A stretch of DNA of 50,458 nt from Fistulifera solaris (lineage: Eukaryota > Bacillariophyta > Bacillariophyceae > Naviculales > Stauroneidaceae), in assembly GCA_030295235.1 (NCBI GenBank), contig AP026175.1:1-50458 (forward strand), in the 5' to 3' direction. Shown here one piece after another: positions 1,366-45,660 of this stretch. The notes beneath the pieces were generated by a model that searched no databases, was not told the DNA's origin, and saw nothing but the letters and a program-made list of their open reading frames with translations. The stretch's first letter is position 1; every line of letters begins with the position of its first letter. The translations under genes were made by a program, and so were the position numbers.

Positions 1366-2909
1366 ATGATTTATCTGTTGTTGCTGCTTCCGGCGGTTGT
1401 TGGCCTTTGCGAACTTCTGCGTCGCTATTTGAATTACCTTTTCACTCCGCTCAATCGCATTCCGGGTGAAAAGACTTCTTTCTTATGGGGATCGTTCTGG
1501 GAACTGCGTAATGAGCGTGGTCTAGCGGCCCATTTTCGAAGATGGAAGAAGGTGGAGTCGACACCCACTTGTTCATTACACGTATTTGTTCGGCACTCAA
1601 TCTGTGCTTGTAACAGATCCGGATATTATCAAAACAATCCTTTTAGCTCCGAGTGAGAAAGTCGGAAAGAAAAGTCGCTTTCACAAAGAGTCTTACTTTT
1701 GGAGCAAGCTCTGGAGCAGGTCTTGTGGCTCTAGATGGTGTTGACTACATGCGACATCGCCGCATTTGTCAGCCTTCCTTCAACACTGGCGTCATACGAG
1801 ATCAGGTGAACGAAGTCATCCCCATCTCACAAAGAAGTTCGTTGAATATTGGGAGATTGCGGCAGACACTGGAGTTGAAATCGATATAATGATTCATCTT
1901 TCAGCGCTCTCTCGACTCGGTAGGCTTTGTTTTGTTTGGGCACGATTTCCGTGGAATGGATTCGGTCAAGGGATGGGCTGAAAAGACGAAGGATGCTCTT
2001 ATGTCTGGTCAGAAAATCTCGGACGAAATAGGCAAAGAGGCATTTCGCTTCGATGATCCATTCATTGCAGGAGTTATGGAGGCTCATCATACCAACTTAA
2101 TCACCATTGCCTTGATTGTCCTTGGTCTAGCATCTCTCGATCCCTACATTAATCCGAAACGAATTAGGACAGACCGGGTCGTGAATGAAGCGACAGACAA
2201 CATGATTGAAAACGCGAGAACCAGCGACAAGTATTCTCTTTGAAATTGCTTTTGCAGGCGGGAGATCCTGAGGACGAAAAAGTCAAGTTGACTCAGGAAG
2301 AGCTTCGCCACGAATGCAAGACTTTTCTCTTGGCTGGACACGAAACTACGGCAACGCTTGTACAGTGGACACTACTCGCATGCTGTAAGCACCCTGATGT
2401 TCAAGAAAAGCTTGTCGAAGATATTCGTAAGCACTGGATTCCACTAGTGACTTGACCCTCGACATTGCGGAGAAAATGGAGTACATGCAGGCGGTGATTA
2501 ACGAGGTTTTGCGCATGTATCCTCCAGTTGCGATGATCATTCGTGTCAACAAAGAAAAGGAGATACTCGGGGGCTACGAGATACCTGCTGGAACACGCTT
2601 GGGTCTTCCGATGTTGTTAGTCCACAGGCATCCCAAATTTTGGGATAAGCCTGATGAGTTCCGTCCCGAGCGCTGGCTTGAAAACCCGGAGCCTTCACAT
2701 CGATTTGCGTTTTTCCATTCTCTGCAGGATCTCGTACATGTATTGGAAATCGCTTTGCGGTTTGGGAGGCGAAGATTATGCTGGCCGGGATTCTGAATGC
2801 TTTTAAGGTTCAACTAGCACCTTCTCAACGTGAAATCGTTCACGAGTTTGCTATTGATATCAGCATGAAGGCAGAGCCATCTATCCTTGTCTTGATAAAG
2901 AAGCGTTAA
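1366..2909 (+). CDS. Cytochrome P450 monooxygenase (frame-broken)
   Basis: Haem-thiolate monooxygenase, probably anchored in the ER by the N-terminal hydrophobic helix that follows Met 1366 (LLLLLPAVVG). The family landmarks appear in order across several frames: the proline hinge (PLNRIPG), a B/C-helix segment (DYMRHRRICQPSF), the helix I oxygen-binding motif AGHETT (near 2334-2350), the helix K motif NEVLRMYPP (ExxR, near 2500), the FRPERW motif (near 2660), and the haem loop AGSRTCIGNRFA (near 2725-2760) with the cysteine ligand. About 510 residues in total is normal length. The frame changes at least five times. At the haem loop one missing T in a TTTTT run (2710-2714) explains the shift and would give FPFSAGSRTC, so sequencing error is more likely than decay. 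Helix I and K suggest a CYP3/4/72-like clan; the substrate cannot be inferred. It is the first gene from the telomere, about 1.25 kb inside. Confidence 0.88.
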
Positions 2910-3281
2910 AGTTTTAAGGCGCGGAAACGATACATTCTAAGTCGACATTCTAACAGAAATGGTTGGCTCTCGTTTAGTTGGTGTTTAGTCGTCCTATCGC
3001 GTATTAGTGATTGGTTATTTGTTAGCTTTGCCAAGTGCACATCGTGAGTTTGCCATTTAACTCTGTTCGATGGGCTTTATATGTTACTTCGTAACCTTAG
3101 CTCAGTCCAAGCCGAACATCGCTGGATATCGAACCCGGATGTGCTCTTGAGGTGCGCGAAGGCGGAAGCAATACTTATTGGATGCGCGCACGAGCGAGCG
3201 CCAAGGTGACGACGATGAAGCGCAACATGCAAGCAACAAACAAAATATAATAGAAACCCCGCAACGGGAAGAGCTTTCTTT
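2910..3281. other. Intergenic spacer
   Basis: Spacer between the P450 stop and the first ATG of the PLC-like gene. A 110-codon open frame on the minus strand overlaps the start of the next gene and has no recognisable features. I see nothing else. Confidence 0.5.
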
Positions 3282-6200
3282 ATGCATCGGAAAACACATA
3301 AAAGACTCGGATATGATACAATCATCCCTCAAGTCGGGGCAAAAGCGCTGCAGCCACTTCCCAGCAAATCCGTCTCCGACAAGAGAAATCTCCAAAGCTA
3401 TCCTGTTGCCGAGGCCTTGTTGCAGGATCGACAATCTTTAAAATCGGATGAAGAAGCTGGTATCGAGGTATTAAAAGTTACAAAGGTAAGTAAGTCATAT
3501 TTGTAAAGGACAGCGCCCAGTTATGAATTGTTTCTGACGAATTATTTTAATCAGCTATTCAAGTTACAACCTCGGCGAATCGCCATATCCCTGAATCGGA
3601 AGAACTTACTGGTGACTTCAGGACGTATTAAATCACTGAAAGGCATTTTACGAACAGCTATCTCTGCCAGGAGTATTTCTCTGGATCAGATTGATCGTAT
3701 TCAGCGAGGATGTGTCACTAAACGCTTCCTGTCGGCCGCTCTTGAGCCAACTGCAATGCAACAAGCACTTTCGATAATATATTATGACTCAGGAAGCTTG
3801 GAATCTCTGGATCTAATCATACCTTCGCGGCGAGAATTTAAAATTGTTGTGCAGACTTTGAAGACTTGGCTGCATTGGCTGCAGTAGAGCGTCGGCGCTT
3901 ATCGATTTTCGATCAAATCGCGCACTTTCATTTATCGCAATGCAGTATAAAACTCTCCGAATCCAGCATCTCTTACTCGCAATGGATGACAATAACTGAT
4001 ACGCTACACACTTCTCTTCCAAAGACGCGCTTAACAGACATTTTTCGGCGGCATTCCGATAAAGTTGCTCTGTCGGACGTTGGCTTGTTGTTATGTTACG
4101 TCTATGAAGAGTTGAACGCTGACAAGACAGTGACACGGATATGGGACGAAATGTTGGAGGATGACCCAGTTAAAGACAAGGACAGCATTAGCGCAGTCGA
4201 GTTCCTTTCTTTCCTTCGAAAATATCAGAAATGCTCACATTATCAATTGGAGGAAGCTTGCGATCTCATACGCCGCTTACAATCAGGTCAGGAAGATCGC
4301 CTTACCAAAGCACAATTCTTGAAGTACTTGACAGGTGATGCGAACGACTTGGTAGATCCCGAGCGGGCAAAGGAAGGAGTGCAAAACATGCACCAACCTT
4401 TATCTCGGTATTGGATACACAGTGCACACAGCACGTTTCGAACTACAGCGAAGCCAGTTAGTTTCGGCCGAACGTCGAGTAAAACCCAGCAGACATCGCG
4501 GATGAGCAAATGTATATGGCGGCATTAATGCGCGGTGTGCGATGTTTGGAACTGATAGTTTGGGATGGAATCGATCCCGACTCCGTGGTAGTGTCATCAC
4601 AAAATCCAGCGAATTCGTCTTCCAGTTCGGTTCCTCTCGGACGTGGTGTGTAAGCATGATAGCCAATTTCGTGGAACAGTTTCCTTTATTCTTTCCAATC
4701 ATCCTACATTTGCAAATTTGCTGTCAGCAACGTCTGCAAGCTCTGGCCGATCAGTTGGAATCCATCCTCGGCGCCTTCTTGCTTCGTCCGTCCAGCGGAG
4801 TGGATGATCACCTCAGTCTGCCGTCACCAGACCAAGCACGAGGAAAAGTCATTATATTCAGCAAACGCCCCGTTGCTGGTTCTTCATCTGTCGTCATGGA
4901 TGATTTTGATTGGGACATTGACAGCGAAAAGCAAATACCTGTTACTCATGAAGACGCGACGGTTGGAGATCGAACGAACAAAAGCGGCCGGCTTGTCGGG
5001 TTCGATGCGCATGGTCCTTCTTTATCTGGTCGACCCGGGAATTCATCCGCAGGGACACCCGATCTAGTTATGGAAGCAGGCTATTATCGATGCTAAAGAA
5101 GCCACAGATTCTTTGGAGAAAGCCTCGCTAATATGAACGTGAACTGAACGACAAAGCGTTGCAACAAGCGAATTTGGCCGCAGAGCTCATGTCGCGTTTG
5201 GGAATTTCGCCGCATCAAATCAAAGAGAAAACATGTTTAGACCGCCGGAAAACCCTACCAACGACCAAGTCATCTTTCAAGAAAGTCCTTCTATGGATGA
5301 AGGTGTCGAGATTCACGACATTTTGCCCCATCTTGTAAGCGGAGATCAGACCCGTTACGAAAATGCTCTTTTAGAGGCTCAAGAAGCACAAAACGCGTAG
5401 AACATTGCAAAGAACGGTTAGAATTTGCTGAAAGAGAATTGGAAAGAGCGATTCAAGTTGCGCAATCCGATAAGGGAACCGACGTAGACGTTAGAGAACA
5501 AGCACGCAAAGCTGCAAACGAAGCTCGGATACACAACGAAGATGCGATAGCGGCCGCCCAAAGGGTAGAACGCCTCAAAGAATTAGTTGCACAAATCGAA
5601 GACAAAGCTGGAAGTGCCGGAACCGTTGTACAAACTGCGCTCACAGAGGCAAAATATCCGAAAACGTGCGTTCGATGCCGAGGCCCGAGCCGAACGAGCC
5701 CGCGTCGCCGCTGAACATGAGCGCAAGCGTGCTGAGGAAGAGACAAGGAAGGAAGAAATTTTAGAGAGGATTGTAAGTGATATTCACCAAGAGTGTCAGT
5801 TGGCGCAAAGTACATATGATCAGGTTCGTGAGCGGATTGAAAAGCAACTCTGCGTTTAGAACGGGCAAAAGAACAAATCCGATCGTTAGAAAACTCTAGC
5901 AAGTACCGAGAACAGTTGCTTTTGCAAGAAACGGAGTCCCGACCACTTGTAGTGCAGCACGCAGAAAAGATAGAGGAGCGAGACAATTGTTTAGCATTGA
6001 TTGATAAGGCTACGCAAGAAAGTATTTTAGTCGACAAAAATCGAAAACAGTTGCAGCTGAAACTGGAGGAAAAGGCACAAGAGTGGCGGATCCAAGCCGA
6101 GCTCGCATCTCAGACACGTCGGAATGCAGATCGCTCGGTCCACGCCGCTGAAGAATTACTTGAGCATGCTATCGAAGAAAGAGAAGCGGCTGAACTTCGA

Positions 6201-7493
6201 CACGTTGCGTACAAGAGAGCGGAATCAACTGTCAGTGACCGCGGATCTCAGAAAGAATCGTTGTTCGCGCAACTAAAAGAAGCCGAACGTGCTTCTGTCG
6301 AAGCTAAGCTTGCGGCGCAATCGAAACATCGCGCCTCCTTTCTGTTGGACGAACTTGATAAGGAAGCACTCAGTCTTACACAACAATTGGTCGATGAAAA
6401 GAAGTTGCACGTAGTACGATTGCAAGGCGAGCTCGACTCGGCACAACTATTGAAACAGCACAAAGAGTTGGAAGTTGAGAAAGAGGTACAACGATTGAAA
6501 ACAGATTCGGAACTCATGAAAGGGACAATGATAAGTGACGTCGTAACAGATAACAGTCAAGTGGACACCCCACGGGAAGCGGATAGTTATCAGTGCTTTT
6601 TACTCAGAGCGTTGTTGTTGAAAGCATGACGCCAACAAGGCTTCGCTTTACACACAAGTTTTAATGAGTGAAGCCAACATGAAGCGTGAGGTGGCGAACC
6701 GGGCAAGTGAATACAAAATTCTGATGGAGATGACACTTGAGCTTCCAGACAAACTCAGTGCAATGATCTTCCTTTACTCCTGCCGATTGAGAAATTGGGC
6801 AAGCAGTATGTGTCTTTCGAATGTCCATGCTCACAGTTTGTCACAGAGAGTGCTTGTCAAACGACTTGAAGAGAACGCCGGTGAAGAAGTCGACTTGAGA
6901 AAATTCACAAAAGATCATCTCTGCCGCATTTTCCTTATGGCAAAAGAACAAATCATTTCCTATGAAAGCGTGGTCTCTGGGATGTCAGTTCGCTGGCGTC
7001 AATCTTGCATTTCTGATGAACAAGTATTACTCGCAGAAGGCCGATTCCGTGAGAATGGTTCGTGTGGTTATGTGTTGAAGCCACGATATCTGACGCACGA
7101 TTACGTTCGCGGAGCAGAACAGCCTCAACGCTGGGCTCTTCAAGTCATCAGCGGGTTTAACATTCCTTCATGCAGTAACAATGTCAATCTACGAGTCCAG
7201 GTCAAAGTGTGGACGGCGGACGGAGAGCCCATCATTCACGAGACAGGCGAAGTCAGTCGGAATTGTTTTAATCCATCGTGGGGAACGTGTTTGATCTGAA
7301 GATATCCGATCCGAGTATGGCCATGGTCAATTTCATCGTCTACAATGGCTCGGAATATCTCGCTGGTGCCTCTTTACCAGTTAGTTGCTGGAGGGAAGGA
7401 TTTCGAAGCGTTGCACTTTTCAACGCAAATCATTCTCGTTCGGGGCCTTATGAGTTCGCTTGTCTGCTGGTTCAAGCAACACGGCACAGATGA
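3282..7493 (+). CDS. PI-PLC-like protein, PH-EF-X-[coiled coil]-Y-C2, catalytic residues lost
   Basis: Phosphoinositide phospholipase C architecture in family order. An intron (3486-3554, GTAAG..CAG) precedes a PH-like domain (about 3555-3860, ending in a PLC-type DLIIPSRREF segment). EF-hand-like repeats follow (3870-4360), then the X half from HQPLSRYWIHSAHSTF (about 4390) through RGVRCLEL..WDG (about 4535) to LPSPDQARGKVIIF (about 4860). An approximately 600-residue linker (4880-6690), largely charged coiled coil, comes next. The Y half ends in NGSCGYVLKP (about 7050-7080), and a C2 domain runs to the stop (LQVISGFNIPSC..FNPSWG..). Against PLC-delta1, the first catalytic His is kept. The Ca-ligand Asn is Ser, the ELD Asp is Ile, the LENHC Glu is Gln, the second catalytic His motif (HGHT) is missing, and the SSNY substrate region of Y is degraded. 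It is therefore probably a non-hydrolysing scaffold. The frame breaks several times; a GGGG run at 7280-7283 explains the last break. Confidence 0.85.
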
Positions 7494-7883
7494 AGTTTGT
7501 TAATTAGCTAGAGGATTTTGAAAGATTTTTAGCGTGACTATTCGATATTAAAGTCTAGAGACTACCAGAAATGGCGTTAAAATTCTGCCTCGTCGTAGAC
7601 GCTACGTAGAATCGAGGCAGAATTTTAACGTCCTTTGCATGTATTCGATAGGTGTATCTTCTTGAGAAAAACACTGATACTTCCACGTGAAAGCAAACTG
7701 TGCCTTTCGTCGTCCGTCCTGTGCCAGAATTAGTGCCGGTAAGATATCTTCCCCATAATACCGCAGTAAGCTGCTTCAACAATAGCGCTTTCACCTGCTC
7801 CATCTCAGCAACAACAACAATGAAGGAGACGTCGACCATTCTTTGAGCACATCTCAACATCTCGTATTGATTATCACAAGATC
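7494..7883. other. Intergenic spacer with one hairpin element
   Basis: Space between the PLC-like stop and the ATG of the first S2P-like protease. It contains the inverted-repeat element at 7573-7633 and otherwise nothing I recognise. Confidence 0.6.
7573..7633. repeat. MITE-like hairpin element, copy 1
   Basis: The left arm GGCGTTAAAATTCTGCCTC (7573-7591) and right arm (7614-7633) form a near-perfect inverted repeat of the 20-base consensus GGACGTTAAAATTCTGCCTC, with a 22-base loop containing CTACGTAGA. The same arms occur at 31193-31265 and 44762-44830. All three copies are intergenic. The shared arms and variable loops suggest a short non-autonomous mobile element or a conserved structured site. 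Confidence 0.8.
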
Positions 7884-10486
7884 ATGTGCACAACAACTAC
7901 AGTGCTACTTGCTTATCTGCTTTTGCTCGTAGCGGAGCCTTCTGGCGCTTTAGTTCATTCGAGATCGAGATTCAAAGGGCCAACCTTCTCCACTAGATCT
8001 AATCTTTCCAGATTCACGACAGCACAAGCAGCAGTTGCAAATGATAGAGAGACTTACGCAGAAGAATTAAAGCGAAAAGCTGCTGAGATACGACTTGAGG
8101 CGGAAAGCATGGATATAAAATTGACTTTAGAAAAGATTGCGTCGTTAGAGCGAAAAATTGCGGCGAATAAACAACAACATGAAATTGAAGAAATGCAAAG
8201 GCAACTGGAAGCTTTAAGGAGGCGACTAAACGGCGAGTCAAGCGTTAAGACGATTGCGACTGAAAAGACGGTGAAAAGAGTGAAATTGATTCAACAGACA
8301 CTGCTCGACCATCAACTCTCGACACCCCCCCCCCTCAATAAACGATTATATAACTCGTTCTTCGGCCATGACGTACGAAGATATGCTGAAAGAATGTCCC
8401 ATTGCTGGTTTTGACGAGGAAGATCTTGCCCTTTACATTCCCGTGTGTCAGCGACTGGAGGAACAGATGCCAAATGCGACCGACGTTACTTTAATGACGG
8501 TCTTTCGACAGGAACAATCCTTACAAAAGCATTTTCAAGAAAAGGTTACCAAAATGATTGCGGAACCACTGGAGGACTTGCAGAAAATGGAGTCATTACG
8601 CAGTCAGTATCTGCAATCGACGAGCCGGCTTGAGAAAGATCAGCTAAAGCGAGAAATGAATGCACTGGAACGAAAACAGCAATCGATGATGGCGGGTAGT
8701 GATGGTGTCTTTGAACCTCCCTCCTCTCACTCCAGAACGACTGAAGGAACGTTTGATGCTATAGAAGCTCTGCCACGCACACTCAGAGCCGTTTACATGA
8801 GTAGGACTGGGTCTTTGAATACAACAATGGCGATTTACTTGGACTATTATGACGCTCAGCTACAGTTACTTGAACAAGTTCCTCAAGTTGAAGGGATTGA
8901 TCCTATGGAAGTCCGCCGTACCGTCGAGACATTACCATATGCACTACAAGAATATATAGCTGAAAAGGAGGAGTAGCGGATGGATGGAATATTGATCTGT
9001 TGGTTGAAAATTGATGGAGAAAGATGAGGACGAGCAACAGCCAGCGAATCAGTGGGCAAGGGTCCAAAATGGCGGTTTTTCCGTGACAGTCGAGCGTGGT
9101 GATACAACGGACATTGATTATCTTGATCGATCCCGTTACGTTTCCGAGTTGTACCCAGCTCTGGCACGGATGCCGAGCCCTTCTCAAACCGAAGTGGAAG
9201 GAATACTGCAACGATTGGCGCCACTTTTATGGTTCGGTCAAAGCCAGAGAGAGTTGTTGGCTATTATTTGCGCGGGGAAAACATGATTTCGGATGACGAC
9301 AATGGGCTGAAGCTCAGCGAAAATTGCAAGAGGTGTTTCGTGACACCAACATGCAATGTTTTACATCCAAGATCCGTCGCCTGTCAGTGACGAAAACTTC
9401 GAAATGGGTTATCAATATGAATCGGTAATATTTGTCACATCCGGGAATTCTTCCGATTTATACCGTAGCGCCGGAACCGTTGAAAAGGTTGCGCTTGCCA
9501 CTCTCTGTATTCATGGTATGGGTCTTTGCAGTCGCGGGCTGTGAAATGCAGCCAATTTTGAGCGAACGGATAGACCAGACACTCAGCGAAGTGAATGTTA
9601 ACACTGCTGATTTATCGTGGCTTCTCAATATTCTCAATCCGACCATCATGTCCATGTTTACCATTTATTTATCTCACGAGCTTGGTCATAAGCTCATCGG
9701 TTGGAAGGACAACGTAAGTACAGCAATAAGATTGATTGTGGTTGGAAATTACCGACAAAACTATTATCTTAGCCATCACTACAGTTTCAGGTTGGTCTGC
9801 CATCTCCAATCCCGTCTATCCAGCTGGGTATCTTGTCTTCGATTACACCTATCAAATCGCCTCCTCCCACGCTAAGATCAATGTTCGACTTCGCTATTGC
9901 GGGCCCTTTTGGGCTGCTGGCGTCGTTTGCGTTTTTCATAACTGGACTAACGATAACATCGTCGTCCGCCGATCTTTCTTTATTTCCAGCAGTGCCGGTT
10001 TACATGCTAAAGGCCAGTGCTGTATGCGGGGTCTGACAGAATTTTATTTGGGGAATGGAATTTCGAGGTAGGGCCAACCTTGCCTCTTCATCCATATGCC
10101 ATTAGCGGCGCCGTTGGGATTCTTGCCAATGCTTTGGCGTTGTTGCCATTAGGACGTAAGTACAACGTATTTTTATCAATACATAAATGAGAATGATCTC
10201 ACATCTCTGGCTTGCAGAAACGGATGGTGGACGCATCGCTCTAAGCATGTTTGGTAGACGAGGGCGTTCGTTATCAAGTCGTTCGCTGCGTTGCTCATCT
10301 GCTTATCCGGACTTGTAGGACTCGACAACTCACATATCCAATTGACGTATTTGTTGTTTGCAATTATTTGGCAAAGAGAACTGAAACTCCAGCGCGGAAC
10401 GAAGTTGCCGAAATAGATGTTGCTAGAGGGCATGCGGGATTGCGATGGCTTTGCTAGTGTCCATGATTCTGCTTCCAGCTCAGTAA
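7884..10486 (+). CDS. Plastid-type site-2 protease, EGY-like (paralogue 1)
   Basis: Intramembrane zinc metalloprotease of the S2P/M50 family, closest in layout to plant EGY proteins. Met 7884 opens a signal peptide (VLLAYLLLLVAEPSGA) with a transit-like basic stretch, consistent with a complex plastid. A coiled coil (about 8040-8240) follows, then the EGY-type soluble region (GYYLRGEN; FYIQDPSPV). The membrane core carries HELGH (zinc ligands, about 9676-9690), FDFAIAGPFG, LHPYAISG and LPLGQ|TDGGR, then helices to MILLPAQ at the stop. Introns are 9714-9790 (phase 0, after the HELGH helix) and 10156-10217 (phase 1, within LPLGQ-TDGGR). Frame breaks include a C10 run at 8325-8334, which joins the targeting/coiled-coil part to the globular part, and several others near 8970, 9250, 9470, 10030 and 10300. 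A paralogue with both introns in the same places lies at 14335-16895. Confidence 0.88.
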
Positions 10487-10655: not shown

Positions 10656-12505
10656 CTATAGAAAGATTTGGATCACTCTGTTCAGGACAGCCAGATCTAC
10701 CGAAGGCATCCACGAATTCGGAATTCCAATCCCAAAAGCACAAATTCGCACTAAAAATGTCGCACTATTGAACATTCGCGTGGCATTTCTTACCGGTGTG
10801 GTGTCCCATTCACTTATATCAACGTTAAAAGCAGTCGCTGCACGGAACATGGCGTGCATAGTCTCTGCATTCTCGACTTGCCACCGGCTAATGTCTCCAT
10901 TGAAAGACGATGCCGAACGAAAGGTGCTATCGAAATTGAACACTTGACTTAGGTCCCAGAAACGGAGAACACCATTGAATGCCGAACGAGTGAAGTGACT
11001 TGTGCTGTGTTCCATAAGCGGATGTCGCCTTGAAAACTAGAAGCACCACGTAACTCGTGCTGTACTCCAAGACGACAAACTTTGATTGAAAGATCGGGCG
11101 CGAGCAAAGCAGAAACTCAGATCCTGCAAATTCTCAGTGTTCCAGCCTCCGATTTCCTGGTTGATATTTGTAGTTAGTTGAAACATATTGCGAAACGACC
11201 AAACACGTTCTACATTCCATTCTCCAATACTTCCGTCAAAGGGTGTTGCAGCAAACATGTTGCTCATGTCCGTGACTTGTGATGTGTCCCAACTCGAAAC
11301 GTCTCCTTCGAAGGATGAGGCATTGTAAAACAAAGTCGACATATCGGCTACACGGGAAGTGTCCCACGCTTAATCATGATTGTATGATGTGGCTTACAGG
11401 AACTTCGCCTTGAGACTCGTCTCGCTACTTGTATTCCACGGCAATGGTTGATTGAACGATGCAGTGTTGGCAAACGCAAACTGCAAATTTAAGCGGCTAT
11501 CACCATTGAAAGCAGAGGAGAAATCTTGCACTTGCAATGCATTCCACCTCCAATCCTATCCCAGTAAAGGACGAAGCGCCCCGAAAGGCAGCCTGTTGCG
11601 ATTCTATATATCCCACGAGCTTGAATTACTGTTGAATGCCGTAGCACCGCTGAATGCGTCTTTCAAATCTGTTAGACTGGCTGCATTCCAAGGAAGAGCT
11701 CCGTGGAACGCGGCGGCACCGAAGAAAAGGGAATTCATTTTCATGCCACTCCATGTATCCCAGTTGCTTATATCTTGATCGAAAAATTCGGCTTTCGCGT
11801 TTCGTGTGACTGAAAAGAGTTGTGTCATGTTGGTGATGGCTACAACATTCCATTGATTGATTGAGAAGTTTGCTTCGGAATTCAGATACTGACCCACGGC
11901 CTCATACAGTTGCTCCGTCGTTGTAAAAGTAACACTTTAGGATAGATCCTGTAGCTGTTGAGATAGCTGTCGGGGTAACTGATAGAAAGTACTTGCTGAA
12001 TGAGGGGATTTTGTCGGCAGAAACGTCACATTCATAGGACGACTGAAAGCTTCCTATTCGTCCTCTGGCTTCAGTAACGTAATGATAGCAATCAAAAAGG
12101 CAATCAGTAGCAATAAGGCAAATGAAATCAGCCAAACTCGTTGACTGCGACGAAGTTGTCGATCCGACATGGACGTTTGATGATTCACTATTTGTAGTGT
12201 CGTTTGTGAATTGCTGTCGTGTGATGGCAAATGCTGCTGTGCATCCTCATAGTCTTCCTCTTGACTCGTCGATACTCTCAGTAAATCATTCTTTGCTCCG
12301 GGAGATGCCACTTCACTCGGATCATAATCATCCGTCTCATGAGAATACATAATTTCATCCGCATTTTGAAATTCATCCGAAGGAATATCCGTATCGACCG
12401 AAAAGATGGGAGACGAATCTCCATAGTTTGGCGCTGATCTTCCGTTCCGCTTTTCTTATCACTAGTCTCTTCAATCCGTCTGCGATCTACATTTTGATCG
12501 GACAT
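10656..12505 (-). CDS. BspA-like LRR (DUF285) membrane protein
   Basis: The start MSDQNVDRRR is at 12505 on the minus strand. A hydrophilic N-terminus of about 115 residues precedes one transmembrane helix (VWLISFALLLLIAFLIAIITLL, near 12070-12135). The rest, about 450 residues, carries DUF285/BspA-type repeats recognisable as FNxDISxWDTSxVTxMxxMF (for example VSSWDTSQVTDMSNMF, about 11250-11310, and ISEWDTTPVRNATRMF, about 10755-10800). This is a type II topology with the repeats outside the cytosol or in a lumen. BspA repeats occur in bacterial surface proteins and in large families of diatoms and other protists, where they are thought to mediate adhesion; the ligand here is unknown. The frame breaks about six times within intact repeats. 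Converges with protease paralogue 1, 170 bp away. An alternative start at 12568 would add 21 residues. Confidence 0.85.
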
Positions 12506-12563: not shown

Positions 12564-13445
12564 AACATTCGAAACGAAAATCATCCGTATCGTCGACTGC
12601 CATTTTTCACTATGACAGTAAAGTGTAAGTTGCACGCGATCGCGACTGAATTTCAGTCACTCGAAACGCCACACCACCGAAGCAATGAAAACACCAAAGT
12701 TGTCTTCAAACAAAAGCGCGAAGTGTAACATCAAATGCCATGGAAATACCAATAATAAATGAATTAACTATCATCTATCATCTTCATTCGAAGCGCAGCT
12801 ATTTGCGTCGGAAAGCATCCGTATCGTCGACTGGTTATTTTCATTATGATGGTAAAGTGTATGTTCTACGCGATCGCGACTCAACTTCAGTCACTCGAAA
12901 CGCCACCGAAGCAATGAAAACACCAAAGTTGTCTTCAAACAAAAGCGCGAAGTGTAGAATCAAATGCCATGGAAAACCAATAATAAATGAATTAACTATC
13001 ATCTATCATCTTCATTCGAAGCGCAGCTATTTGCGTCGGAAAGCATCCGTATCGTCGACTGGTTATTTTCATTATGATGGTAAAGTGTATGTTCTACGCG
13101 ATCGCGACTCAACTTCAGTCACTCGAAACGCCACCGAAGCAATGAGAGCACCGAAGTTGTTCAGTCTATAATTAATCAACATTTAAATACCAATATATAA
13201 ATATGAACTAACATTTTCTTCACTCGAAACGCAACTATTTGCGTCGAAAAGCATCCGTACCAGGTACAGTACAGTATCGTCGACTGCAATTTGCACTAGG
13301 ATGGTAAAGTGTTGGTTGTACGCGATCGAGAATAAATTTCAGTCACCATTAAAAGAAGAAAACAACATTGAAACGCCACCAAAGTTGTCCTCAAACAAAA
13401 CGCGAAGTGCATACCATGTAATCGAATGCCCTGAAAATACCAATA
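12564..13445. repeat. Tandem repeat array, 228-bp unit, about four copies
   Basis: The marker CATCCGTA recurs at 12582, 12816, 13044 and 13252. The two central copies are nearly identical with a 228-bp period (the AATAATAAAT marker lies at 12751 and 12979); the outer copies are diverged and carry indels. Because 228 is divisible by three, an open frame runs through the two central copies (12740-13171) and encodes a repeated HYDGKVYVLRDRD peptide. The outer copies do not keep that frame, so I treat it as non-coding satellite or promoter duplication. It lies immediately upstream of the LRR gene. Confidence 0.85.
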
Positions 13446-19021: not shown

Positions 19022-21356
19022 TTATTGTAATACGGCGTAAACTTCTTTCGCGCAAGCCTTTGCGATATCTCCATGCGGCGAAGCGGCTGGTTCGACCATT
19101 GATGCCATGTAGAGACTGCTGGCTATTGATTTGGCATTCGCATGGGACAATACTAGCGTACCAAGCGTTTGAAGTGTTCGTAATAGAGCTTCTGTTTCGT
19201 ATTGGCGATTGGTCAAAATGTCCTTGATGCTGGAAATAATGGTATCACAATTCACGGCCGTCGCTTCCTCTGTTTGTCTATCATGAGTGGGCTGCATGGA
19301 GTAGACTAGATTGTGCAACACGGTGGCCACCGACAATCGGACATTCTTATTATCGGACTGCACGTGTCGTGCAGCGCACGCGCAAAAAGTTCTCGGTCGG
19401 ATGTCGATAAGCAGTTTGGGTTTGAAGCTAACACGTTAGCCACCAGTCGTAAGGTCAACATCGGAATCGCTACAGCCGCCGGTCCCGATAACGTTCCGAA
19501 CGATGATTGATCCATCTCACACAGCTTTCACTAGAGAGGACGCATTGTATTGTATACCATCCGGGTGCCGTACTGCCATGCGCGCCAGGTCCAAGGCGGG
19601 AAAGGCCAAGGACGGCGACAGAGATTGTATGCAATGCTGAAGAAAATGCCAATGCTGCGGGGTGACATGACTTACGTGATAGCGCTGTGGCGCCCAACAC
19701 CTCGACAAGTGATGCTAGCGTCGATCGATCCGAGTCATCGGACAAACTTTCTTCCAATTTAAATTGAATTTTCGACAGCGTCGTCGTAGCTGTGGCGGCT
19801 GTCAAATCAAACGCTTTGGCGTGAGCAATAGGAAGATGTTGATAAGATACCAAAGGTGTTCCGGTGGTCGCCCGAGGCATTGTGTTGAAGGCCGGGCCCG
19901 CTGAGCCAGCAGAGCCAATTGTCGGTGGCGCGGTACCCACACGTTGTTGAATGTAATCCGCAATTTGCGCCAGGTGATATTGTGGCAATTGATGGGCATC
20001 CAAAAACGTTGTGCCGCCACGAACGTATTCTCCAATATTGTATCCGACACGCAACTGCGCTACACCGCCGCCGGTCTGATCGACTTCGATGGGTAAAACG
20101 TGATCGTAATGGACACCATCGATCATGCCACTACCATTGCTATCAGTGCCTTGACTACCAACGACCTGTCCGACTTCAATCCAAGTGGAAGAAACCATAC
20201 TCCATTGTGCCGCAATGGCGATACCATTTTTCTGAAAAACTTGCACTTGTCCTTCCGATGTACCCCGATGTTGTGCTTGATGCTTCCATTTCGGTAATTT
20301 GGCAATTTCTTCCGAGGAAGGACCCGTTTTGGTATGTGCCTGCTCCACGAGTTGTCGAAACGCTTCCTGTTCCGCGATATCAGCGATCCGTTCTGTAGCC
20401 CGGGTGAAAATTCGCAGTTGACCATCATCACAGCACGTGGCGACATCACCATTGGGCAAGGGAACTACATTCCATACCGTTGTAGGATGCAAAATCGTTT
20501 GAGGAGGATTTTCGTCTTGCAATGACCAAAATACGACGTGCCCATCTTCGGCACTTGCAATACACGTCGTCGCGTCACCGGATGTCGTTACCGAAAGCAA
20601 CATGGGCGGTTGCTGCTGTTGTCCTAGCTGTGGTACAAACACCAACGTTCCCGTCGCTTTTCCTGTTTCCACATCTCTCATAACGACCGTTCCGTCATTT
20701 GAGCATGTCATGAGTGCCGAATCATTACAACAATGAATACTCCGAATCGGACCTTGATGATCGTTTACGACGGAATGCAACAATTGCACGAGCCCCGTCT
20801 CGACATGGACACTCCATATGCGGACTTGGTAGTCTTTATGACATTATTGACAGCTACTCCGGCCGACCCTGTCGCAATTTTCAATACATTTGGCTGTGAC
20901 GAAGGCAAGGCAACGACACACGTTGAATTTTCGTGTCCTTCGAGTGTCGCTAAAAGCACTTTGCGTTGCCAGTCCCACACTTTGACGGTTCCATCCCATG
21001 ATCCTGATAAGAGGTAATAATTTTGTTGCGTTTGTGCCCAAGATAAAGAGGTGACAGGTTTCGTATGCCCCTCAAAGGTTCCGAGACATTCGTAGGAACT
21101 CCGTGTATCGAAATATCGAATGACACTGTCTTTGCAGGCTGTAACGAGTTGTGTGTGCAAAGACGTCACTGCCGTCACAGTATGATTGTGTTGAAAGGTA
21201 ATCGGTTGTAAAGTACCTGAAGGTACGTGAAATTCACAAGGAACCTCCTTGTGTTCCCACGATCATGCGAATGTCATCAGTGTCTTCGTTCTCAATGACA
21301 CAAGCCGTACGAATCCCTTGATCGTCTAACGAAGAAAAGTTTGCGATAATTCCCAT
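19022..21356 (-). CDS. PLAA/Doa1 (Ufd3)-like ubiquitin-binding WD40 protein
   Basis: Cofactor of the Cdc48/p97 segregase in ubiquitin handling. From Met 21356, WD40 blades follow (FEGHTKPVTSLSW..SGSWDGTVKVWDW; SNDGTVVMRDVETGKATG; AEDGHVVFWSL). A PFU domain (about 20000-20200: DHVLPIEVD, LRVGYNIGEYVRGGTTFL, LAQIADYI) binds ubiquitin in the known family. A C-terminal PUL domain of ARM-like helices (about 19030-19850: IQFKLEESL, MLTLRLVANVLA, NVRLSVATVLHNLVYS) binds Cdc48. The order WD40-PFU-PUL is diagnostic. The frame breaks at about 21240, 20790, 19600 and 19440 without loss of domain sequence. It shares an 80-bp intergenic region with the divergent gene at 21436. Confidence 0.92.
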
Positions 21357-26700: not shown

Positions 26701-29700
26701 CTAATCGGATTTCGTTCCGTATTTCGTGTGCGCAGCTTCTATCATGCCGGCGACGACTTCCATACCTCTCGATTCCCACTCTTGTCGGTTCTTCTCGGCG
26801 TAATTCAAGTACTCGTCGCTGGAAACACCAAAGACGCCGCAGTCTTTCAATTTCTTTGCGAGAGGGATGATGTAAAAGTCGAAGAAACCGATCTCTCCCT
26901 TGTACCAGTTCTCAGAAGGATCAGTCGCAGACCTGCCTTGGATGTAGGCTCTGTACATTTCTTCGAACAACCTCTGGTTCCACTTTCTGTAAATGTGCCA
27001 GTGTTGCATCGTGTGAGCGACGTCAGAGGCCTGGATCAAGTGCTCAATGACAATGGTTGCCTTGCGGTCAACAGCGTCTTTCTCCGATTCTTCGACGTTG
27101 TTGCCACTAAACGCCCTTTCCCAGCGTTTGTTTCGGAGACACTTCAAATCCTTGTCCATGATATCAGTCGCCATGACGGAGTTGACGACGAGTTGACGGA
27201 ACCTGATGCGATCACTCTCATTGGGGCATATGGCAAGCCACAGGTCACTAAAGTTTTATCCTGGAGCAACTCCCACGACAAATCGACCGAGTTTTGTTCG
27301 GCAACACTCTTGTCCTTGTAAAACCTGGCAAGTTGGGGATTTTCCTCGATGAGTTGTGTGTTCGGAACACCAGGATGGTCTACGTCATGAATCAAAGCCG
27401 AAAGGACACATGCAAACTGCGTGAGAGGGTCGGATGTGATCCCGTACGTGTAATCATGCAAAGTAGATTCAAGATCGCTGTTCACGGCTTCCACATCGGG
27501 GCCACAATGCGAGACAGGAGTTTGACCACGGACATTGTCACATGTGAAGCGTGCTCAAAATTGTGGAATGGATTGTTGTGATACATTGAGGCGATCGCGG
27601 CAACATATTCCTTCAATTGCGCTAAAACGACATCGCTGAGTTCCTCCTCTTTCACTTCCGTCCCTGCGCCTCGCTTGAACACTGGCATGCGGATAATTTC
27701 TTGGACTTCTTCCAATGGAGTCGTTGTCAATTTGGTGAAGCTCAGCTGTCGGACCGATTCTTGAGTAGTCAACAGATCTTTGCGTCGGGCGATCACTTTC
27801 TTTAACATAGATGCGAGGACTTCCACAATCCACTTGACGAGGCGCTCTGTTTTTCTCCCATTACCTGAGTCATCAATTCAGAGGATGCTTCAGGGGCGTG
27901 GCCTCACCTAAGCCGCCGGAAGTTTCAGTTTCGCTCGATGCCGTATCACTTCGAGTCCTGTTGGAGGCTTTGGTTGTGACAAGCCAGTAGGTTTGCAGCT
28001 CACCCTTCCCTTTAGCCACAACTTTTTCTTCACGCGGAGTCACCCAGTGTTCTTTACCCGCCGCGATCAAAAGCCGTGCAGTTTCCTGTGAAATGTGAAT
28101 TTTGCCAGGGAGCCCATTTGATTCCATTCTGCTAGCCGTGTTCATCGTATCGCCAAACAATTGGAACCGCGAACGCTCACCGCGCAGCACACCGGCTGTC
28201 ACCGGGCCGCTGTGCCAACGCGCATTTGAAGATCTGTTGTATCTGGACCGAGAATCACCTCCAGCTTTTTCGTCAACGCATTCATCTTCTGCACGCAATC
28301 CACAGCAAAGCGGCACATTGCGACAGCGTGGTCCTTTCGAGGATCGGGTAGACCAGTAACAGCAACATAACAATCACCCACCGTCTCGACCTTGAAAACT
28401 CGACGAGCCTTGGCAATGTCATCCATGGCCTTGTAAATGGTTTCGAGCAAGATAAACACTTGAGTCGGCTCTCGCATGGAGCTCCAAGCGGTGAACCCTG
28501 CCAGATCTGCATTATTTGGGAAATTAAGAAACGGCGTGTTAGTGTCTACGGTCAGACTGCTGCTTATCTCGGTTCGTCGCCTCTCTTGACCTTGAGTGCT
28601 TACCTGCAAATAGCACTGTGGTTTCTGGAAATAAATCGGCGATGGGTTTTGTCTTGTACATGTACTCGTCGTTTTCGTCGTCCATTTCGTTATCGTCAGT
28701 TCCGCTTGACAAAAGGTCTTCAGGCGACTCTTACCATTGAGTGTTTTCTTCTCCTCACTCCCCATTTTCGGCCCGGGCGAAAATGCGGTCGCGGACATTT
28801 GATGGGAACATTGAGGAAACGATTGCGTTGGTTCGGGTCATCGCAATTAACAACTTGCGGTTTCGTCGAACGACGAAAGTGTCGAACATGAGAAATGCAG
28901 TTATCATGAATATGAAGGCAAACACAAGCATGGTAGTGGTCTGGACTGCATTTTTCGAGCTGTACCGTTCTTCAAACTCTTTACTTGGGTAAACATGAAG
29001 ATAATACAGACAGTGTCCTTCAACGGATGTCAATTCTTCCTCGGTGAATTCATCTGTGACCTGATAAAAGGAATTACGGTTTCCATGTGATCGTAATGGG
29101 CATCGTGCATGTCACCGATGCCTACGTATTTTACCTAAGACAGCATAATAGACAAAGCTTACAATGTGAGAAAATCAAGCCGTTGGGGGCAGCTGCTGTT
29201 ACCCAATGAACATTGCACGTACCGATCGTCCTTCCACATTGTAGGTGAAAGACTGATTACAGCTGTTCTTCAGAATCCCCGTGATTCCGGTAATGCCCTC
29301 GGGGAGCAAATTTACTAGGTTCGCATCCCAATAGAACAAAGAAAAACCTTGCCAACAATTTTGGCGGTTTTCGGGTCAAACAAGTTATCGTATACTGGGT
29401 GAGCAAGGGCGCCGTATGGAGGAGCGTTTGCTAGATCAGGAGGTGGATCAAGCACTCTCGACATTAAGGGCCTTCGGAACTTTTCAATTGCCTCGTTAGT
29501 TGCATTTGCTCCGAAAACGTAGGCGTCGACGTTGATGAAGTATGAGTCGAAAGAAGGAGGAGAGCCTTGCCAACGTGGGAATATGGGCCCGGACCAGTTG
29601 GCATTCCTGGGAACGGGTTAACAATGGAGTAGTCGGTATCTGACAGGTTGAACATATCGATTGTGAAGTTGTGTCCCGGCTCATCGAGATAAAGAGCAAT

Positions 29701-37244: not shown

Positions 37245-39192
37245 TCAAACCCGAGCTAAAGTCATTTTCCACATTCGGTCGACTTGCTCTTGGTCAATGT
37301 CGCCAACTTCGTGTGTCTCTCGTCCTTCAACCGTATTTAACAAGCAACCAAAATGACATGGGACAATATGGTTTTCATCCGTGCTCATGCATACGTCGTA
37401 GGGTCCTTTTAAAAGGGGTTGTTTGGTCCGGTCTTGAGCAACCCAATGCGAATGTGTTGCACGTTCTCCGGTCGCTGATTTATAGCGGCGACTGGCATAG
37501 CGGGGACCGTGTAGTCTAGCACGTAACGCGTGCGAATCGATTTCTTGCCTTTCAGGGCTTTCGAATACATTGAATTGGATAGAATCTTTCCGACCAGCAC
37601 AACCTTGTAGTCTGCCATTTCACTCAAGTCGGTGGAATACGAAATGTTGGGATGCTCCAGCACCACATTGCGAGAGAAAATTCGAATCTTCAGTTTAGGA
37701 TTGTCTTTCACTAACTTCTCACACGGCCGTTCCAATCTTTCCACCCGCGCCAATGTAGTAAAACTCTTGTAGGTTAGGAATATCCATCATCTGATTGTAA
37801 ACCGAAGCCACTGTCATGGTATCGCCCGTCCAGATCTTAATGTTCTTGTCTTTGAGGTACTCATCGTTCTCTACTAATTTCACCATCTCCAACCCTCCAT
37901 CATTGAGTTGCTTCATTTTATTCAGATTACCGAGACCAAAATACCTCGTTCCGTGTTTTGGTGTTCCTTGCGCATCAGCTTGATCATGTCTTGGTTGATT
38001 GCATCATAGCTCTCCGGAGTCATGTAATCGACCGAGTACGAAGCAGACAAATGATTCGACCTACGTATTCATTGGCGATGCAGAATCGTGAGCAGTAGTA
38101 GAACTGACTGAACAAGCCGGTGATGTGTCGAATGGCGTGCATAATGAGGAACTCAAGTCGTAGCGGGAGATAGATTTTGTATTGGCTGTAGGCATTGTAG
38201 ATATTGAGTTCGGGAATGGTAAGGAAGTGCCCGAGTCCACCATTGTGCCCAATAAAGACGAAATCTTGCTGATTGGCGGGCAACATGGCCGGAAGCGGCT
38301 TTTCGTAATGACGAGCGGTCCCAAAGATATAGTCCCAAATCGGCATAAAGAGCGCATAATTAGCATTGAAATAGGCATGATGCCCCAAATGAAATTCGGG
38401 CGTGTAGAAGAGATACTTCAAAGGCGAGTACTTGTGTGTGAAGATAGGATTTCTCACTCGCACATTCGTGTGTCCCCACATATTAATGACATCAAAGGAC
38501 ACGAGATACACTCCAATGGCCACCCAGTGCTGTCGTCCTTGCAACAAGAAGGGTGCAAAGAACGCCGGACCGAACGTCGCGACATACACAAAGTGCTCGT
38601 GAAAGTTTTGCACCAACGACGTGGTGGGCAAGGTCCGAATCGAAAGATGATGAAAACCGTGCATCTTCTTCATGATTTCGGGGACATGCAACCACCGATG
38701 CACAAAGTAGTACGCCGGTTCGATGAACACAACGTGCGCTAGCATCGTTTTTGATACAAGAAGTAATGACGGAAGCATCGGAAAAGAACATGGAAGGAAA
38801 GATGACTTGCAAAGCGACTTGCGTGTACATGTGCAAGATAAAGGCCGTCAAATACTCATCTTTCTCACGTTGTAACTGCTTTTGTGTCAACTTGTTCATG
38901 TAGTTGTCTTTATCGACGAGTTGGTAATGCAGCGACAAGACAATATGCGTCACCAAGATGCGTGTAATTGCAATCGCATAAATCGACCAAATCGGAGTGA
39001 CTTTGTAGAAGAGCAAAGGTCCCAAGAAAATCAGCCAATCCCATTCTGTGTTGCGTTTGTGATCTGAGTGCGTCGGAGCTAATGATTTTGCGGTTTCGAC
39101 GCTGACTTCTACGGAAGAAGAAGACGCCGTAGAAGACGTTGAGGCAGTCGAAGAAGTCGAACTTTTCTTTTCACTTCAGGTCGTTGACACAT
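37245..39192 (-). CDS. CER1-like fatty acid hydroxylase/desaturase-superfamily protein
   Basis: Membrane di-iron protein like plant CER1/CER3, which convert very-long-chain acyl derivatives to alkanes. Met 39192, a Ser/Thr-rich tail, then helices (WLIFLGPLLFYKVTPIW, about 39000-39040). The histidine clusters are HRWLH (HxxxH, about 38685), HGFHH (about 38650) and HLGHH (about 38385), followed by FNANYALFMPIWDYIFGT. The C-terminal WAX2-type domain has GLGNLNKMKQLNDGG (about 37900), YYIGAGGKIG, KIRIFSRNVV and ends HEVGDIDQEQVDRMW near the stop, the same signature as CER1. About 640 residues. In algae the role may be in lipid or sterol metabolism and not in wax. Breaks include about 37900-38050 and 37430. 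Convergent with the flavoprotein gene, 154 bp apart. Confidence 0.88.
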
Positions 39193-44869: not shown

Positions 44870-45660
44870 TCAATATCCAGAATTTCTGGAAGATCAGAAA
44901 CGGTTTGTCAGGAAATTCCGGACCCTCAACAGAATTTCTGTATGATTAAACTTACCTGGTCCAGAACTTCTGGACCACACAGAGAACTTCTTTATGCTTA
45001 ATGCCAGATACGCGTATTTATTTCAAAATTTCTGGAAAACCCACAAAATGGTTGTACTAGGTATGATGATGTATGATCAAACAGACCGATATCAGAAATA
45101 CAGATTTCAGTATGATCGAACATACCCGGTCCAGAATTTCTGGAGCATGAACAGACTTTCTGTGTGATTAATTTTACCTGGTCCAGAATTTCTGGACCAC
45201 ACAGAGAACTTCTTTATGCTTAATGCCAGATACGCGTATTTATTTCAAAATTTCTGGAAAACCCACAAAATGGTTGTACTAGGTATGATGATGTATGATC
45301 AAACAGACCGATATCAGAAATACAGATTTCAGTATGATCGAACATACCCGGTCCAGAATTTTCTGGAGCATGAACAGACTTTCTGTGTGATTAACTTTAA
45401 CTGGTCCAGAATTTCTGGACCTCACACAGAACTTCTTTATGAGCAAAAAGGGTTCCATCTTTGTCAGAATCGACATCCGAAAATCCACAGCCGCAAACCC
45501 TGGGACGTTGGAAACCCACAAAACGTTTGTACCTTACTAGTCCTTGGTTGCACCAGGTATGATGGATGATCAAACAGAACAGACCGGGGTTAGAAGTTTT
45601 AGACCTTATACAGAATTTCAGTATGATGAAACATATCTGGTCCAGAATGTCTGGACCATT
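44870..45660. repeat. Palindrome array GGTCCAGAATTTCTGGACC with 222-bp tandem duplication
   Basis: GGTCCAGAA/TTCTGGACC-type palindromes, exact or degenerate, occur at about 44878, 44959, 45130, 45181, 45352, 45403 and 45640, with weaker CAGAATTTCTG sites between. From 44955 to about 45400 the sequence is a near-perfect direct duplication with a 222-bp period. The open frame through it is not conserved. This is satellite-like or regulatory DNA. Confidence 0.8.

Follow-up and report, generated by a model that had tools for sequence, protein, structure and literature searches.

Here, we examined a gene at positions 3282 to 7493 of the forward strand of a 50,458-nucleotide stretch of DNA (the window), which is the whole of contig C49 in genome G000 of the diatom Fistulifera solaris. 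On balance, we favor the view that this gene encodes a protein from a diatom family of phospholipase C (PLC) delta-like proteins, the "long-arm pseudo-PLCs," and that its product is a catalytically dead pseudoenzyme that binds phosphoinositides and tethers partners through its arm. By sequence, the PLC core is retained and key catalytic residues are lost. The X and Y halves of the catalytic domain are predicted still to come together as a single barrel, and the linker of 620 residues between them is predicted to leave this barrel and return to it as an antiparallel coiled-coil arm of ca. 28 to 31 nm. The PH-like, barrel, and C2 modules may then hold the protein on a phosphoinositide-bearing membrane, leaving the lipid uncut, and the arm may reach out to bind or tether partners. 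The initial annotation of this DNA had suggested a membrane-binding scaffold or assembly protein, which we consider plausible. The gene and its setting are laid out below; catalytic-core residues are numbered as in rat PLCδ1, and P0001 (FisN_33Lh064) is a Fistulifera solaris protein.

3313 to 3485, forward strand: exon 1, with at least one frame break; the inferred start Met is aligned to the start of P0001
3486 to 3554, forward strand: intron GTAAGT...CAG, 69 bp; P0001 joins KVTK to LFKLQ here
3555 to 3885, forward strand: PH-like domain, end approximate (hhalign to the PLC-delta N terminus)
4103 to 4345, forward strand: EF-hand-like region (PF09279, 22.5 bits, cut-off 21)
4388 to 4871, forward strand: X half of the barrel, with N312S, D343I, H356S, and E390Q; H311, E341, and K440 kept; frame-broken in the window
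4872 to 6729, forward strand: X-Y linker, ca. 620 codons, mostly helical by prediction
5604 to 5700, forward strand: arm 1, with the conserved block TVVQTALTEAKISEKRA and a break in the second structure model only
5916 to 5957, forward strand: predicted turn of the coiled-coil hairpin
6126 to 6245, forward strand: arm 2, with the conserved block HAAEELLEHAIEEREAAELR and a break in the second structure model only
6730 to 7083, forward strand: Y half of the barrel, with S522 and R549 kept, Y551F, and the SSNY loop deleted
7084 to 7493, forward strand: C2 domain (to 7490; below the Pfam cut-off) and stop codon (7491 to 7493)
1 to 115, no strand: telomeric CCTAAC repeat, ca. 3.2 kb upstream; part of the setting, not of the gene

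Genome G000 (51.7 Mb in 61 contigs) holds further copies of the gene on C40 (99% DNA identity) and C41 (87%). P0001 and the C41 reading share 99% identity, and P0002, a protein from a 12.9-kb NCBI contig, matches the window copy at 97.6 to 100% in clean frames; both are single uninterrupted readings through the gene. On the C41 reading, Pfam gave clear matches to X (75.6 bits) and Y (67.0 bits) and a weak C2 match. The EF-hand-like region passed its cut-off in the window frame, fell below it in P0001, and was weak in the C41 reading. The PH-like call comes from one hhalign profile comparison with PLC-delta (88.5% probability), which covers the second half of PH onward only. Of the PH-EF-X-Y-C2 order first proposed, X and Y stand clearly, EF and C2 weakly, and PH by hhalign and not by Pfam. 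With X and Y predicted to form one barrel, followed by C2, the protein belongs by fold to the eukaryotic phosphoinositide-specific PLC (PI-PLC) superfamily.

According to a review (PMC11174929), the residues key for catalysis in rat PLCδ1 are His311, Glu341, Asp343, His356, Glu390, Lys440, Ser522, Arg549, and Tyr551, and its calcium ligands are Asn312, Glu341, Asp343, and Glu390. The C41 reading, P0001, and P0002 all carry His311, Ser312, Glu341, Ile343, Ser356, and Gln390 rather than the H311/N312/E341/D343/H356/E390 set of an active PI-PLC; in the window, the substituted codons lie at 4430 (S312), 4555 (I343), 4597 (S356), and 4713 (Q390). The Asn-to-Ser, Asp-to-Ile, and Glu-to-Gln changes and the loss of the second catalytic His that the initial annotation had read from the window are therefore present in all four sequences, and the recurrence of the same states in C41, P0001, and P0002 bears out its view that indel errors do not explain them and speaks against read errors of any kind. 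Its further claim that the SSNY region is gone holds for the loop itself; Ser522 and Arg549 lie outside the loop and are kept. Lys438, Lys440, Ser522, Arg549, and Tyr551 contact the headgroup, and their places in the present proteins were obtained by counting along the sequence.

With Asn312 and His356 lost family-wide, and Asp343 and Glu390 lost in Fistulifera as well, the Fistulifera protein should be unable to hydrolyze phosphatidylinositol 4,5-bisphosphate (PI(4,5)P2, or PIP2) in the known way, and a loss of catalysis is strongly supported. The ratio of nonsynonymous to synonymous substitution rates (dN/dS) between the presumed homoeologs is 0.20 over 1216 codons, a figure based on the 1216 pairs encoding exactly the reference residue, with frame-broken stretches excluded. 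By part, it is 0.19 in PH-EF, 0.11 in X, 0.21 in the first part of the linker, 0.23 in the coiled coil, 0.31 in Y, and 0.22 in C2. This purifying selection, the same substitutions in copies from other sources, and the family-wide loss of Asn312 and His356 sustain the earlier description of the protein as a pseudoenzyme. Two other PLC copies in the same genome, on C34 and C12, have all six X-domain catalytic residues; three further PI-PLC X matches of 47 to 52 bits (L006, L007, and L008) were seen on C7 and C8.

Protein searches, in which scoring was limited to the candidates with the most shared words and the last listed 120 of its 175 matches, recovered at least 71 relatives that have a long linker and are intact from X through Y, as well as 4 fragments, a number that rules out an oddity of Fistulifera alone. 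The initial annotation had noticed neither the family nor the Asn-to-Asp change in most of its members, and it had also missed the subsequent decay in Fistulifera and the probable coiled-coil hairpin. The linker is 608 to 741 residues long (median, 640) in the 71 members, which were picked by that trait itself, and 620 to 621 in Fistulifera, whose protein has both family-defining features: an X-Y linker of more than 600 residues and replacement of both N312 and H356. All 71 relatives have the same order of parts within one protein, which supports the original supposition that the coiled coil and the PLC parts belong to the same gene. Asn312 is kept in none of 75 sequences (Asp in 69, Ser in 3, Ala in 2, and Val in 1) and His356 in one (P0033), with an alignment gap in another (P0075) and Arg the commonest replacement (49). 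Among the 71 complete members, Glu341 is kept in 67, Asp343 in 63, and Glu390 in 68; four acidic residues, with Asp replacing Asn312, occur in 63 (60 with E341 and 3 with D341). Lys440 and Arg549 are invariant, Ser522 is present in 67 and Lys438 in 15, and 66 have Phe in place of Tyr551. Across the 29 comparison rows, Asn312 is universal and His356 is present in 28, the exception being the fish PRIP-type protein P0100.

Organism names were given for 8 of the 71 members: F. solaris, Epithemia clementina, Nitzschia sp., N. inconspicua, Mayamaea pseudoterrestris, Bacillariaceae sp., Pseudo-nitzschia multistriata, and Skeletonema menzelii. Taxonomic records for four of them place all in Bacillariophyta (Skeletonema in Thalassiosirophyceae, the other three in Bacillariophyceae), and the remaining four are diatoms as well. 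No Phaeodactylum or Thalassiosira member was named among the best-scoring candidates listed by the protein searches, which for the last search were 120 of 175 matches. P0066 and P0076 are MMETSP transcripts, so some members are transcribed. In a tree of X plus Y (98 rows), the long-linker family forms one clade (ultrafast bootstrap [UFBoot], 98), joined to the canonical diatom PLC C12 and to P0079 in a clade with UFBoot 100. A Fistulifera clade (P0001 to P0003) and an Epithemia-type clade (P0018, P0020, and P0023), each with UFBoot 100, have lost the acidic residues at 312 and 343, and the metal site is partly lost in P0063 and P0074. Judged by these residues, most diatom members could still take calcium, with Asp standing in for Asn312; Fistulifera should not.

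The X-Y linker was originally put at about 600 residues, largely coiled coil, and we find it to be 620 to 621 residues, mostly helical by prediction. Over 24 members, mean identity is 44.5% in the C-terminal 433 residues of the linker, compared with 47% in X, 50% in Y, and 36% in PH-EF. Averaged over the family, hydrophobicity shows its strongest periodicity at 3.50 in one arm and 3.52 in the other; no named Pfam coiled-coil family was matched in the 11 members scanned. Since both ends of the linker return to the barrel, a hairpin is expected. An AlphaFold2 model of the P0002 tail (24 sequences; predicted local distance difference test score [pLDDT], 77; predicted template modeling score [pTM], 0.49) has helices at 316 to 504 and at 521 to 659/664 to 715, and a second model, of P0072 (71 sequences; pLDDT, 82; pTM, 0.62), has helices at 453 to 550 and 558 to 660 (with one short gap), a turn at 661 to 673, and helices at 674 to 770, 774 to 814, 818 to 870, and 874 to 925. 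An arm of 189 to 208 residues corresponds to 28 to 31 nm at 0.15 nm per residue. The closed barrel is seen in the P0072 model only. Conservation to the left of a moving center was correlated with that to the right; the model set both the limits of the arms and the centers allowed, and the best center was residue 511 (r = 0.86), within the predicted turn at 505 to 520 in the same P0002 numbering. Block shuffles, run on smoothed data, reached the observed correlation in 0 of 500 trials with 15-residue smoothing (highest, 0.857, versus 0.858 observed) and in 1 of 500 with 7-residue smoothing; unsmoothed, the best r was 0.39. The best-conserved blocks on either arm are roughly equidistant from the turn. 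Taken as a prediction, then, an antiparallel coiled-coil hairpin is well supported. In the P0072 model, both arms break 104 to 116 residues from the turn, which gives a candidate elbow; in the P0002 model, a single helix runs through that position without a break.

Several observations weigh against the reading that we favor. The Pfam PH domain was found in none of the 11 family members scanned, and identity over the 24 members is as low as 31% in the N-terminal linker segment. The antiparallel pairing is drawn from topology and mirrored conservation, the models having been available as secondary structure, without coordinates or contacts; in the P0002 tail model, with its pTM of 0.49, the PLC match spans only some 280 columns and barrel closure is unseen. 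According to PMC11174929, rat PLCδ1 bound far less PIP2 once His311 and His356 had been mutated. Headgroup binding may likewise have been lost here, given that His356 is gone, Tyr551 is mostly Phe, and Lys438 is mostly replaced. Residual or altered activity may persist in the 63 members with an acidic site, and P0033 still has His356. Finally, the arm may mediate dimerization.

One alternative, which we regard as unlikely though worth weighing, is that the protein acts as a PRIP-like lipid buffer that covers PI(4,5)P2 or inositol trisphosphate and restrains canonical PLC signaling, its arm serving mainly dimerization or avidity. PRIP is known as an inactive PLC that protects PI(4,5)P2, the present protein combines lost catalytic residues with a retained K440, S522, and R549, and PLC paralogs with intact X residues exist in the same genome. 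A buffer, however, leaves unexplained both the conservation of the arm, much of it near barrel level, and the mirroring of that conservation. Less probable still is an altered enzyme, in which a site formed by D312, E341, D343, and E390, together with Arg or Lys at 356, would carry out a modified or slower reaction in most diatoms and Fistulifera would be secondarily dead. The acids at all four positions in 63 of 71 members and the Arg or Lys at 356 in 53 of 71 are in keeping with this, but His356 is part of the catalytic set given for rat PLCδ1 in the available text of PMC11174929, and the acids have been lost in the Fistulifera and Epithemia-type clades and partly in P0063 and P0074, as if the site were dispensable. 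Such an enzyme would in any case be inapplicable to the window gene.

We give very little credence to explanations by sequencing error, by fusion of separate genes, or by decay of the gene. C49 is indeed frame-broken, C40 and C41 less so, but P0001 and the gene model P0002 are open throughout, and the shared order of parts in the relatives argues against a fusion; C41, P0001, and P0002 rule out an error or fusion artifact despite the frame breaks that C40 and C41 have of their own, and the dN/dS value rules out a pseudogene. A more elaborate form of the phosphoinositide-binding tether is a membrane-gated mechanical device, in which the dead barrel would read phosphoinositide (and calcium in most species) and pass binding on to an articulated arm of ca. 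30 nm, inserted between the half-barrels, and its mid-arm elbow, the calcium input having been dropped in the Fistulifera and Epithemia-type species to give a version independent of calcium. This is a speculative extension, to which we assign a low probability, made lower by the fact that the elbow break appears in the second model only.

In lacking catalytic residues within a PLC core, the protein resembles PRIP/PLC-L; the fish "inactive phospholipase C-like protein 2" (P0100) has Val at D343, H356, and E390. P0100, however, keeps N312, which the diatom family never does, and has a linker of 38 residues, compared with 608 to 741. In the tree, P0100 (the one PRIP row) falls among the animal PLC rows and the diatom family beside diatom PLCs, not with PRIP, and the losses therefore look convergent. 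The canonical diatom PI-PLCs (C12, C34, and Nitzschia inconspicua P0027) share the core, and the family has C12 plus P0079 as its sister group, but they keep the six X-domain residues and have short linkers (33 to 35 residues in C12 and 39 in P0027; C34 is absent from this comparison because its frame ended before Y). PLC-gamma also has a large X-Y insert (458 residues in P0099 and 503 in P0097), but one made of SH2/SH3 domains, and it keeps all six catalytic residues. Foldseek and VIA-align matched the models to the long coiled coils of SMC-type arms (MukB elbow, 6h2x; condensin, 6yvu; Smc5/6, 8i4x) and to the PrgA stalk; these matches are geometric only, with identities of 8 to 18% and root mean square deviations of 15 to 97, and SMC kinship was rejected. 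The head is a PLC core rather than an ABC ATPase, and no ATPase family appeared in the Pfam scan of 11 members. Among plant PLCs, AtPLC8 and AtPLC9 have altered catalytic residues, with inactivity called unproven in the part of PMC11174929 available, and a PLC of Mikami et al. (2004) was reported to lack PIP2 hydrolysis (PMC4122161, likewise in part); in these, other residues are lost, and the accessible portions of both papers do not mention a long X-Y arm.

Fistulifera solaris is described as an allopolyploid diatom in the available part of PMC5935921, and C41 versus C40/C49 is most likely a homoeolog pair. The start of the gene had been placed at 3282, but 3313 is more likely, given that P0001 begins MIESSLKSGQK and the window reads MIQSSLKSGQK there. 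The window gene is frame-broken: tblastn splits P0002 into 8 pieces on C49 and into 6 on C40, and several frame breaks are common to the two. In the coding stretch, C49 alone differs at 39 columns, C40 alone at 7, and C41 alone at 464; C49 therefore adds errors to breaks also present in C40. C41 is nearly open, with two long open reading frames (ORFs) and two frame slips, both in the linker. Within the compared stretch (window 1782 to 8993), C49 nearly duplicates the beginning of C40 (99%) but has more indels, and it resembles a redundant contig. C40 and C41 likewise start with the telomeric repeat, so the gene is subtelomeric on both. Nothing in the phage collection matched.

Elsewhere in the window, a probable cytochrome P450 gene lies upstream in several frames (1309 to 2910, forward; PF00067 match within 2431 to 2793), and frame-broken ORFs directly downstream (7824 to 8976, forward), also found on C40 and C41, have a coiled-coil-like stretch and no Pfam match. 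On the reverse strand are DUF285 (PF03382) repeats at 10659 to 11036, with similar adjoining ORFs to 12246; WD40 and PFU domains, as in PLAA-type ubiquitin-binding proteins, at 19470 to 20843; a guanylate/adenylate cyclase-like ORF (PF00211) at 28199 to 28837; and a fatty acid hydroxylase-like ORF (PF04116) at 38020 to 38847. Tandem repeats occupy 12578 to 13160 (228-bp unit, 2.5 copies, 93% matches) and 44928 to 45441 (222-bp unit, 2.3 copies, 96% matches).

Inactive PLCs are already known from animals; judged from sequence, the diatom proteins would constitute a second, independent pseudo-PLC family, present in raphid diatoms and Skeletonema. A literature search of titles and abstract openings, covering few subscription papers, found no description of an inactive or coiled-coil diatom PLC. 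The entries for P0001 and P0068 are named "phosphoinositide phospholipase C," and counts of PLC enzymes in diatoms may therefore be inflated. The metal site decays in steps, from Asn to Asp and then to loss in at least two lineages, and offers a natural series in which to study the passage from enzyme to scaffold. The addition to a pseudo-PLC of a long, strongly constrained coiled-coil arm suggests that a branch of phosphoinositide biology in diatoms serves structure or tethering.
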